Part shown: in pieces, positions 10,367-61,849 of the stretch
Numbering within the stretch: the first letter of the stretch is position 1
Layout: each line of letters opens with the position of its first letter
Origin: Candidatus Gastranaerophilales bacterium
Lineage (GTDB): Bacteria; Cyanobacteriota; Vampirovibrionia; Gastranaerophilales; Gastranaerophilaceae
NCBI GenBank assembly: GCA_944325835.1
Contig: CALVBO010000002.1
Coordinates: 124,001-188,000 of the forward strand
Length of the DNA: 64,000 bases
Reading direction: 5' to 3'
Notes under the pieces: model-generated
Database searches by the model: none
What the model saw: only the letters and a program-made list of their open reading frames with translations
What the model was told of the DNA's origin: nothing
Made by a program: the position numbers and the translations under genes

Positions 10367-11326
10367 TTAACGATTGACGCAACGAAGATCCATCTCGGTA
10401 GTTCTATCGAGCGGTTCTCTAAGTATCAAACCTGTAGTTCCCCATAAATACCATGCGTAATCCGCTGAATAGAGGGAAGATGACCAGTAATAGCCTTCAT
10501 GCAGCCCGAGCAGTCTTGTATTAACAAACATTGCCGCAAGTTCATAATCAGTAGGCGCCCGCAGTTTTCCGCTTTGCAGCGAACATGCTTTACCTGCCGC
10601 CTCAGACTGGGTTTTTGACGGAATATCTTCATAATACGGATTCGGCCCGACAACAATACTGTCAACAGGTTTGAAAACCGTAATAAAACCAATATCTTTA
10701 CCAACAGTATTCGGAGCCTTAATTCCGTTTAAATCGTAAATCATATTTATACATACTGATGACGCCGAAAAATAATTCGGGAAGTCTTTCTGTTCAAACA
10801 CTGAACAAACAGGGTTGAAGAAAAGATTTATGCTTTCACCGTTATCGGTAAAAAATGCTACACTATCAAAATCGTCCTGATGGTATGAATAAACACTTCC
10901 GGTTTCGGCATCCTCATAAAACATATCAACAAGTTTAGGGTTTAATTCACCCCATGATTTAGGCATTCTGAAGATAGTACCGTCAGTAGCGGTAATCGTT
11001 TGCGGCAAACCACACCCGAAGAATTTATCACCGGCACAAACCATATGAACTTTTACAAGATCACGATACTGATCCAGAAAATCTTCTGCCGAATGAAAAT
11101 CCCGCAGTGTATCCAAAAGCGGCAACGCTTGCGAAACACGGGTTAACAGGACTTTTTTTCTGACCTTGAAAATAAGATCTTCAACGTTTGCCTGCAAAGT
11201 CGGCAGCGTTAACACTGTAACGACACCAATTATAGTAAGCGCTATTACAACCTCTACCAGAGTAAACGCTCTTAATTTTCTATTCAATAAATTTTTTATG
11301 TAACCAACAAAATTATTATTTATCAT
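10367..11326 (-). CDS. Prepilin-like protein with C-terminal DUF1566-like domain
   Basis: The 319-residue protein has a basic N-terminus and a type IV pilin/pseudopilin helix (FTLVEVVIALTIIGVV, residues 21-36). The Glu at position 5 of the mature form is present, but the residue before Phe is Ala, not Gly. The C-terminal part contains KAPNTVGKDIGFI and ends YYWSSSLYSADYAWYLWG...LRCVNR, like DUF1566/Lcl-type lectin-fold domains. Two shorter relatives lie at 54.9 and 60.6 kb. Unlike them it has no poly-G leader. It is probably exported through a type II/IV pilus-like system and displayed at the surface. Confidence 0.8.
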   Translation of the reverse strand: MINNNFVGYIKNLLNRKLRAFTLVEVVIALTIIGVVTVLTLPTLQANVEDLIFKVRKKVLLTRVSQALPLLDTLRDFHSAEDFLDQYRDLVKVHMVCAGDKFFGCGLPQTITATDGTIFRMPKSWGELNPKLVDMFYEDAETGSVYSYHQDDFDSVAFFTDNGESINLFFNPVCSVFEQKDFPNYFSASSVCINMIYDLNGIKAPNTVGKDIGFITVFKPVDSIVVGPNPYYEDIPSKTQSEAAGKACSLQSGKLRAPTDYELAAMFVNTRLLGLHEGYYWSSSLYSADYAWYLWGTTGLILREPLDRTTEMDLRCVNR

Positions 11327-54837: not shown

Positions 54838-54867
54838 TAAAAAAGAGGGGTAAGGCCCCTCTTTTTT
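54838..54867. terminator. Bidirectional terminator between argS and prepilin-like gene
   Basis: AAAGAGGGG-5 nt-CCCCTCTTT followed by TTT, and preceded by an A-run for the opposite strand. Confidence 0.9.
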
Positions 54868-56030
54868 AGCGTTTAACACATTGTGCTGATATATCACCGG
54901 TTTCATCTTTGAACACAGAACCCATTACACCTGCATTACCGTTAAGTTGTATAATTCTGTTTGCACTGCCGGGTGAGGAGCTTGTATAAAACTGCATTGT
55001 AGATATATTGGGAATAAATTTTTTGTTAACCCACAATGAAATTGCTTCCTCCTTATTTGGCAGCCTTGCATCGTCCTGTTCACGGCAAAATTTCACAGCA
55101 TCATCATAATAACCGGTTTTAGTTTGATAAACAGGCATCGGGCTGACAACATTTGAGTCAAAAGAATACAACGCCGTTATAAAACCAACATCTTTACCTA
55201 CAGTATTCGGCCCTTTAGAACCGTTAAGGTCATAGATAAAATTTGCACAAATCAAAGGCGAAACAATATATGCCGTAAGCCTTTCTTCTGCCCCGCGGCA
55301 AGAAGGATTGTAGTAGACGACCAAACTTTCGCCGTTCTGTGTTTCAAACGCAGCCGCTTTGGCATTAATCATAGAATGCGAATCTAATGACAGACCGGCA
55401 TAAGAAGCATTAATCATTTTGGAATTTAATTCTAACCAATCAAGCGGCAGGTCGACCGCAGAACCGGTTGTATTAATGCTGCTTACAATACCGCAATCCT
55501 CAAGGTGGTCACTGTCACAAATATTATTAATCTTAAGCACCTTAGCCAGACCATCTGTGATAAAAGTTTCAGCAGCAGTGTCCACTGCATCACTTGCGCC
55601 GGAGGAACTGTCTTCCGTCAGTGTTCCGTAGCCGTTAAGTGAAGGCATAAGCGCGATTGCCTGTGAAAATCTTGCATAAAGAGCTTTTCTTTGCGTGTTC
55701 CAGGTGCGCTCGTTAATGTTTCCCGTCAGTGACGGAAGCGTTATCGCCGCCACCACGCCGATTATCGTGAGGGATAATAATATTTCTGCCATGGTAAATG
55801 CTATTCGACGTCCGTGAGCCCGTAAACCAATTATGGCTCTCGACTCAGTCGGTGTCATTCCGAACTTGTTTCGGAATCTGTCCGGCGACACCGGTAGTTC
55901 GCAACACTGGTCAGATGCTGAAACGAGTTCAGCATGACATGGGGAACTTACGACCTCAACTCCTAATTGGGCGGATAAAGCCGGCCCCCCCCCCCCCCGT
56001 GCAAATTGTTACATTCCTCTGTTTTTTCAT
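54866..56030 (-). CDS. Prepilin-like protein with poly-G leader (frame OFF as sequenced)
   Basis: The body has a prepilin helix FTMAEILLSLTIIGVV, a conserved LNGSKGPNTVGKDVGFI segment and a C-terminus QCVKR, like the 60.6-kb paralogue. The only start with a ribosome site is ATG 56030 (AAAGGA 7 nt upstream); its leader MKKQRNVTICT enters a G14 tract. G13 would read straight into the prepilin frame. G14 stops after about 14 further codons at TGA. An internal GTG at 55891 opens the body but lacks a Shine-Dalgarno site. The leader also contains a dispersed palindromic repeat (55853-55939). Probably a phase-variable surface or pilus-associated protein. Confidence 0.8.
55853..55939 (-). repeat. Dispersed palindromic repeat inside prepilin leader
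   Basis: Contains CATGCTGAACTCGTTTCAGC and ATTCCGAAACAAGTTCGGAA, both self-complementary, joined by a variable centre. It reads in frame with the prepilin body (CHAELVSASD...DRFRNKFGMT). The 15424-15511 repeat is related. Confidence 0.7.
55985..55998 (-). repeat. G14 homopolymer tract
   Basis: Fourteen consecutive G on the coding strand, 32 nt after the leader ATG. Such runs mutate by slipped-strand mispairing and switch the reading frame. Confidence 0.9.
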
Positions 56031-56070
56031 CTTTCTATCCTTTCTTTATCATAAGGCAATAGGTCAATAG

Positions 56071-56140
56071 GGCAATAAGACTTTTTCCATTCGGTCATTA
56101 CGACTTATTGCCTTATTCTCTTATTGCCTTCTTCATTATG
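56071..56140 (-). repeat. 5' UTR copy of the GGCAATAAG repeat
   Basis: GGCAATAAG and CTTATTGCC form a 9-bp stem; a second CTTATTGCC follows. It lies between the promoter and the leader ATG of the prepilin-like gene and matches 61779-61830 and 18958-19030. Confidence 0.75.
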
Positions 56141-56163
56141 TACTATTTTTTTTATTTAGTCAA
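56135..56163 (-). promoter_or_regulatory. Promoter of poly-G prepilin gene (copy 1)
   Basis: Minus strand TTGACT, 17 bp, CATAAT. The same hexamers and spacing occur at 61821-61849 before the paralogue. Confidence 0.75.
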
Positions 56164-60574: not shown

Positions 60575-61640
60575 TTAACGTTTGACGCACCGCACCGCGA
60601 GGTTGTCAATAGTCATGTGGTTCATAACCCCTACTGAGAACTTGACATACCACGCTTCATCAATGGAAGATGATAAAGAAGATGACCAGTACCTATCCTG
60701 TGTCATATTACCGATTAAATTTTTATTGATGAACAAAGCCCCCAGTTCTTCTTTTGACGGCATCCGGTAGTCGCTATCCTGATTTTTACAAATACCGCTT
60801 ACATCATCCATCGCAACAGCCGTTGATGCATCATTAGGCTGTGGATACGGTGCAACTATCAAACTGTCCGTCGGATAAAATACCGTAATAACACCCATAT
60901 CTTTGCCTATTGTATTTGGGCCCTTGTTGCCATTTAAATCATAAAGGAAATTAGCACACATTTTCTTCTGCACATAGATATAATTCGGCTCGGCTAAAAG
61001 CGTTGTACAGCGCGGATTATAATAAAGTGCAATACTTTCGCCGTTTGCAGTTTCAAATGCGGCGGCTTTGGAATTAATCTGCGAATAAGAATGCATACCA
61101 CCAGAACCGGAAGTCCAAACTACAGATACCGAGGTATTCAAAGGATTTAACGCTTCAAGGTCAATCGGGAAATCCATCTGGCTGCCTGCAAGAGTCGTAA
61201 CTTTTTCCGGCAAACCGCAGTCATCGAGGTGTTCATTATCACAAATATTATTAATTTTTAAAACCTTTGATAATCCGCCGGTCAAGAAAGTTTCCGCGAC
61301 ATTATCCACACCGTCGCCGGCGCCGGGAGATGATTCCTCCTGCAGCGTACCATAACCGTTTAAAGAATCCATTAACGGTATTGCCTGTGACAAGCGGGCA
61401 TAAAGCGCTTTTCTCTGCGTGTTCCAAGTGCGTTCGTTTATGTTGCCGGTAAGTGACGGAAGCGTTATCGCTGCAACCACACCGATTATCGTGAGGGATA
61501 ATAAGATTTCTGCCATTGTGAATGCTAAATTCTTGCTCGGATTCAATTGTGGAAGTCGCTCAGCGGCCGACTCCTCAATTGTGCCTGTTAAGAGAGGCCC
61601 CCCCCCCCCCTGATAAAATCCTTACATTTCGATTTTTCAT
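60575..61640 (-). CDS. Prepilin-like protein with poly-G leader and DUF1566-like end (frame OFF)
   Basis: The body has FTMAEILLSLTIIGVV, then NINERTWNTQRKALYARLSQAI, GPNTIGKDMGVI and a DUF1566-like end RYWSSSLSSSIDEAWYVKF...VRCVKR. The start with a ribosome site is ATG 61640 (AAAGGA 8 nt upstream). Its leader MKNRNVRILS enters G13. G12 would continue as GGGG-PLLTGTIEESAAERLPQ into the prepilin; G13 stops at TGA seven codons after the tract. An internal TTG at 61546 lacks a ribosome site. Close paralogue of the 54.9-kb gene. Confidence 0.8.
61598..61610 (-). repeat. G13 homopolymer tract
   Basis: Thirteen consecutive G on the coding strand, 30 nt after the leader ATG, in the same position as the G14 tract of the paralogue. 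Confidence 0.9.
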
Positions 61641-61778
61641 TCTTTCCATCCTTTCTTTTTTTCTAGTTAATCAGTTAATTAGGATTATGGGAGTTTATCC
61701 GGGTTTATTCTCGTCAATTCGGTCATATTCCTTATTAACTCTTTAACCTATTAACTTATTAACTTTTATCGTCCATTC

Positions 61779-61830
61779 GACAATAATGACTCTTTGCCTT
61801 ATTCTCTTATTGCCTCTTTCATTATGTACC
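61779..61830 (-). repeat. 5' UTR copy of the GGCAATAAG repeat
   Basis: Shares GCCTTATTCTCTTATTGCC and CATTATGTACYAT with 56071-56150, but the hairpin arm is degenerate. It lies between promoter and leader ATG. Confidence 0.65.
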
Positions 61831-61849
61831 ATGTTTTCATTTTAGTCAA
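61821..61849 (-). promoter_or_regulatory. Promoter of poly-G prepilin gene (copy 2)
   Basis: Minus strand TTGACT, 17 bp, CATAAT, identical in hexamers and spacing to 56135-56163. Confidence 0.75.

Follow-up and report, generated by a model that had tools for sequence, protein, structure and literature searches.

Phase variation through G tracts has been described in a gut commensal, Bifidobacterium breve, in which the sortase-pilus genes bbr_0113 and bbr_1889 carry an intragenic G tract near the 5' end (PMC9187656). There, events of -1+3n join the two reading frames, the second ORF has no active start, and population mixtures of tract lengths have been measured. In Neisseria, the opa genes form an unlinked multigene adhesin family in which each copy has its own CTTCT repeat, is switched ON and OFF independently and exchanges sequence with other copies (PMC5953494). 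The papers consulted also included PMC5877343. Here we examined a poly-G tract in front of a prepilin-like gene of Candidatus Gastranaerophilus, an uncultured gut bacterium belonging to the non-photosynthetic relatives of cyanobacteria. As in B. breve, -1+3n events would join the frames in most copies. However, whereas the B. breve switch involves one or two loci per genome and the sortase pili of a Gram-positive, we found 71 modules on a type IV pilin-like family.

The poly-G modules of the window and the genome

The analyzed window, a stretch of 64,000 nucleotides of contig CALVBO010000002.1 (positions 124,001 to 188,000; assembly GCA_944325835.1), lies in a 1.95-Mb, 99% complete assembly of 44 contigs. 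The first-pass annotation had proposed that a G14 run 32 nt after the only start with a ribosome site splits a prepilin frame that G13 would restore, and that the gene should flip between expressed and silent. The anatomy was confirmed. The features of this copy (copy 1) and of a second copy (copy 2) in the window are as follows:

56135..56163, minus strand: copy 1, sigma-70-like promoter TTGACT-N17-CATAAT
56038..56043, minus strand: copy 1, ribosome site AAAGGA
55999..56030, minus strand: copy 1, ATG (at 56030) and 32-nt leader (MKKQRNVTICT)
55985..55998, minus strand: copy 1, G14 tract, one G too long for the open frame
55799..55984, minus strand: copy 1, linker, open only in the ON frame, holding a palindromic repeat-like stretch
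54866..55798, minus strand: copy 1, prepilin-like protein from the FTMAEIL cleavage/methylation motif to the stop
61821..61849, minus strand: copy 2, promoter TTGACT-N17-CATAAT
61649..61654, minus strand: copy 2, ribosome site AAAGGA
61611..61640, minus strand: copy 2, ATG and 30-nt leader (MKNRNVRILS)
61598..61610, minus strand: copy 2, G13 tract, one G too long
61523..61597, minus strand: copy 2, linker
60575..61522, minus strand: copy 2, prepilin-like protein with a predicted C-terminal Lcl_C / C-type-lectin-like domain

At G14 the frame of copy 1 stops 8 codons after the tract, while at G13 (also at G10 and G16) it is open for 372 codons through the leader and prepilin. Copy 2 has the same build, is likewise OFF and needs G12. 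Runs of nine or more Gs gave 11 overlapping matches in the window, i.e., two tracts, and 0 of 100 shuffles reached that number. In the 5' untranslated region of copy 1 (56031-56135, minus strand) there are repeated GGCAATAAG / CTTATTGCC units that could pair. A distant relative (41% identity) of the prepilin N-terminus was matched at 11096-11269 on the minus strand, with no tract of ten or more Gs near it.

The first-pass annotation could not see how far this arrangement extends: it is not one or two loci. The genome (designated G000) holds 94 tracts of ten or more Gs, of which 71 have a ribosome site, an ATG and an open leader of about ten codons, or about seventeen in the long-leader type. 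A TTGAC-N15-19-YANAAT promoter precedes 59 of 70 modules, in contrast to 1 of 70 control stretches. A protein search with 60 residues of copy 1 found 93 copies at 86% identity or more and several distant ones. Sixty-two of the 93 have a tract within 0.9 kb upstream. Of the other 31, about half lie at contig ends, and others start conventionally without a tract, e.g., MKNLAFTMAEIL or MKQAFTMAEIL, so that tract and tract-free versions of one gene stand in the same genome. One further tract locus (L035; loci are numbered with the prefix L) has ATA where others have the start ATG and is probably a dead copy.

In 59 relatives, the module was found in 6 of 7 genomes of the genus (own included) and in one other genus. 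In a wider sample of the family, 22 of 288 genomes and 7 of 41 genera have it. Most have one to three copies, while eight or more occur only in five members of this genus and in the genome G027. The contig titles of near relatives carrying the module read Candidatus Gastranaerophilales, Melainabacteria and Candidatus Gastranaerophilus phascolarctosicola. A public assembly titled Fusobacterium sp. (JAMPIJ01; L224, L227, and L231) carries the same module and genes, and its title looks wrong. A Planctomycetota hit (L260) was not scored and is probably due to chance. No match to the prepilin was found in phage records.

Frame states and variation between genomes

To examine the state of the modules, the reading frame was scored for 58 of the 71 in G000, the other 13 being mostly at contig ends or having linkers with a stop. 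Twelve were ON, 41 had one G too many and 5 had one too few. In the relatives, the ON/+1/-1 counts were 10/45/1 of 56 in G002, 2/16/2 of 20 in G006, 9/9/8 of 26 in G004 (where tracts interrupted by N were left out), 4/2/7 of 13 in G003, 0/2/0 of 2 in G001 and 0/1/7 of 8 in G027, altogether 37/116/30 of 183. Of the 23 further tracts in G000, eight were at contig ends or had a garbled leader, one was L035, two had an in-frame stop in the leader (L092 and L098), four were non-family tracts without matching flanking frames (L033, L086, L102, and L110) and eight were other non-family tracts counted separately. L102 and L110 are two similar G14 tracts (AAGTAGC-G14-TT) not inside long frames, perhaps promoter-spacer tracts.

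The three frames are far from equally used in G000, G002, and G006 (chi-square p 6.5e-9, 2.7e-13, and 5.5e-5, respectively), which simple free switching does not predict. Interestingly, in G000 and G002 the dominant length shifts with the leader phase (G13, G12, or G14 for leader lengths of 0, 1, or 2 mod 3), so that the +1 offset is kept, and 0 of 20000 permutations of lengths among loci reached the observed count in either genome. A pure length equilibrium is rejected for these two genomes on this ground. Leaders are, however, related by descent and gene conversion, so the loci are not independent and the permutation overstates their independence; collapsing identical leaders leaves the result but does not cure this fully. 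The same test was weak in G006 (930 of 20000) and showed nothing in G004 and G003.

As a control, nine poly-G genes outside the family in the same assembly were scored, of which 7 were ON, 1 was at +1 and 1 at -1. One of them, L077, another prepilin type, is also inside the 58; without it the family is 11/41/5. The difference is significant when calculated either way (Fisher p 0.001 and 0.004, the former with L077 left out of the family), indicating that the bias towards OFF belongs to this family and is not a general length error. Among the poly-G genes outside the family, three AlgX-like (SGNH acetyltransferase-like) genes near each other on one contig (L067:1327-1340, L067:3112-3125, and L066:1508-1520) each carry a G13-14 tract near the 5' end, two being ON and one OFF. 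They form a second, smaller poly-G family, possibly modifying surface sugars. A gene ending in a Gp53-like tail-fibre domain (L071, minus strand) carries a G11 tract and is OFF by one, and could be a phase-variable prophage tail fibre. An AAA ATPase and three genes without a clear name or with DUF2963 (L076, L051, L072, and L087) carry G11-14 tracts, all in the open frame.

The linkers between tract and prepilin in 53 G000 loci total 3937 codons with no stop in the ON frame, as opposed to 208 and 220 stops in the other two. This selection of loci favors openness, but of 55 tract loci with the prepilin motif in any frame, 53 have an open linker. The linkers of most modules, including that of copy 1, contain stretches that may resemble palindromic interspersed repeats (CHAELVSAS...RFRNKFGMT) and keep the reading frame open; the linkers reach 232 residues.

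Fourteen syntenic sites join G000 and G002, a close relative, with upstream flanks 84-98% identical and mostly over 90%. Tract length differs at 7 of the 14, and the ON/OFF state at 6 of 13 scored. The cleanest case is L064 (G14, OFF) against L292 (G13, ON), with the same leader and gene. Only five pairs share both the same (or nearly the same) leader and the same gene, and two of these differ in length. At other sites the leader or the gene itself has been replaced while the flanks stay, which points to gene conversion between copies, so part of the state differences come from replaced cassettes. The site of copy 1, after gltX, holds the module in G000 (G14), G002 (G13), G001 (G13), G006 (G14, at a contig end) and G004 (length broken by N), with different leaders, and lacks it in G003 and G005. 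In G003 and G004, most modules have the -10 only about 22 nt from the ATG.

The mature coding regions of five pairs that are OFF in both genomes showed purifying selection, with dN/dS values of 0.05 (L050), 0.04 (L049), 0.05 (L037), 0.13 (L090), and 0.12 (L063). Pairs OFF in one genome and ON in the other gave 0.03 (L044), 0.18 (L093), and 0.08 (L064), whereas pairs with different genes gave near-saturated values. The pair for copy 2 (L046/L272) has the same tract length and only four changes (1 synonymous, 3 non-synonymous, ratio 0.86), too few to show selection, and L042 matched over only 49 codons. Genes that are OFF in two assemblies are thus probably still used at times, or in some cells.

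The prepilin-like protein and its predicted fold

In 67 aligned members, the first 40 residues are almost invariant and the last third is highly variable. The N-terminal cleavage and methylation motif with a hydrophobic helix is present (FTMAEILLSLTIIGVVAAITLPSL), although the N_methyl profile PF07963 scores only below its curated cut-off (18.1 against 21.2 bits). A Pfam RxLR match at E 0.097 was taken as chance. A prepilin peptidase domain (PF06750) was found in 6 of 7 genus genomes, own included.

To get an idea of the fold, the structure of copy 2 was modeled (mean pLDDT 88), which predicted a pilin-like helix at residues 3-50 and a C-terminal domain. By both Foldseek and VIA-align, the best solved match of this domain is the C-terminal domain of Legionella pneumophila Lcl (PDB 8q4e; Z 13.8, rmsd 4.0 over 109 residues, 22% identity), followed by C-type-lectin-like proteins and intimin-type adhesins. 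At the sequence level, Pfam Lcl_C matches 38 of the 67 members at E<=0.01, but copy 2 remains below the curated cut-off (29.7 against 34.9 bits). Adhesion and filament assembly are inferred.

Explanations of the switch and comparison with known systems

By every test that sequence allows, copy 1 is a contingency locus and one of dozens. We consider phase variation by replication slippage the best explanation, with good though not full confidence; no reads were available to show switching within a population. In this view, each copy is a self-contained locus in which a constitutive-looking promoter and ribosome site drive translation from an ATG about ten codons before a G12-14 run, and gain or loss of one G during DNA replication moves the ribosome into or out of the prepilin frame. 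In frame, a pre-prepilin is made whose leader (poly-Gly plus linker) should be cut off by the prepilin peptidase before FTMAE, so the mature pilin-lectin is inferred to be the same whatever the tract length; out of frame, a short peptide ends soon after the tract. With dozens of copies differing in the C-terminal lectin-like domain, cells of one population would show different small subsets of probable adhesins, most of which appear to be OFF at any one time. Replication slippage as the cause, reversibility, cleavage and surface display are inferred. The mechanism proposed in the first-pass annotation is supported, while the genome-wide family, the strong excess of tracts one G too long, the tract-free copies and the lectin-like domain were beyond its view. 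Loss of mismatch repair as the cause of tract abundance is not supported as far as tested, as intact MutS is present in 7 of 7 genomes.

The predominance of +1 could be due to loss of a G being the commoner slip in long runs, which would make +1 the state one easy step from ON, or to leakage through RNA slippage. A possible, though tentative, reading is that selection holds the whole repertoire at exactly one G too long whatever the leader phase, as a default-silent, poised state from which the commonest slip (loss of one G in DNA, or slippage in RNA) turns single adhesins on. The genome would then work as a frame-tuned array with low or rare expression of many pilin-lectins rather than as independent coin-flip switches.

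Among the alternatives, the one that survives best, although unlikely, is programmed slippage, in which RNA polymerase or the ribosome slips on G13-14 and makes a small, steady amount of in-frame product from every copy. The +1 excess in G000, G002, and G006, its maintenance across leader phases and the conservation of genes OFF in both genomes agree with it. On the other hand, +1 does not dominate in G004, G003, or G027, true ON lengths occur in 37 of 183 modules, and the permutation carries the caution given above; a universal programmed frameshift is not upheld. It is also doubtful that the OFF copies are silent pseudogenes or donor cassettes serving only gene conversion into the tract-free copies. 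Such copies exist, and the nearly identical N-termini and exchanged leaders suggest that gene conversion is probably active. However, the OFF copies have their own promoter, ribosome site and intact frames, mostly of 320-473 codons after the tract (two shorter, 160 and 255), about a fifth of the scored tract copies are ON, and the linkers lack stops only in the ON frame, which a donor would not need.

That the extra G is an artefact of reads or assembler is largely refuted. Tracts do lie at many contig ends with odd lengths there (up to G30), G004 has NN gaps inside tracts, and G-tract lengths in databases are known to be unreliable (PMC9187656). However, the poly-G genes outside the family are mostly in frame, the dominant length depends on leader phase, which an error would not know, and +1 also dominates in the separately assembled G002 and G006. 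Finally, translation from GTG 55891, from which an open frame exists, is rejected, as no in-frame ATG, GTG, or TTG with a Shine-Dalgarno-like motif lies between tract and prepilin in copy 1, only 12 of 53 loci have any such start after the tract, the linkers are open right up to the tract, and leader and ribosome site are conserved.

The kind of switch is known, while the host, gene family, scale and frame bias are new as far as we could check; in a search limited to open-licence papers we found none on phase variation in this lineage. The set offers a concrete account of how this little-known lineage may vary its attachment proteins in the gut. In the B. breve pilus genes, the -1+3n events are enriched in mice (PMC9187656), so the resting state there lies on the same side as here. 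The Legionella Lcl, named a collagen-like adhesin by NCBIfam, carries a collagen-like region, whereas here the domain predicted to share its fold sits on a pilin helix behind a poly-G switch. Neisseria meningitidis, N. gonorrhoeae, and N. lactamica average 15-19 poly-G tracts per genome, with up to 82 phase-variable loci of all repeat types and about 4-12 opa copies in the pathogens (PMC5953494), as compared to 94 tracts of ten or more Gs in this genome.
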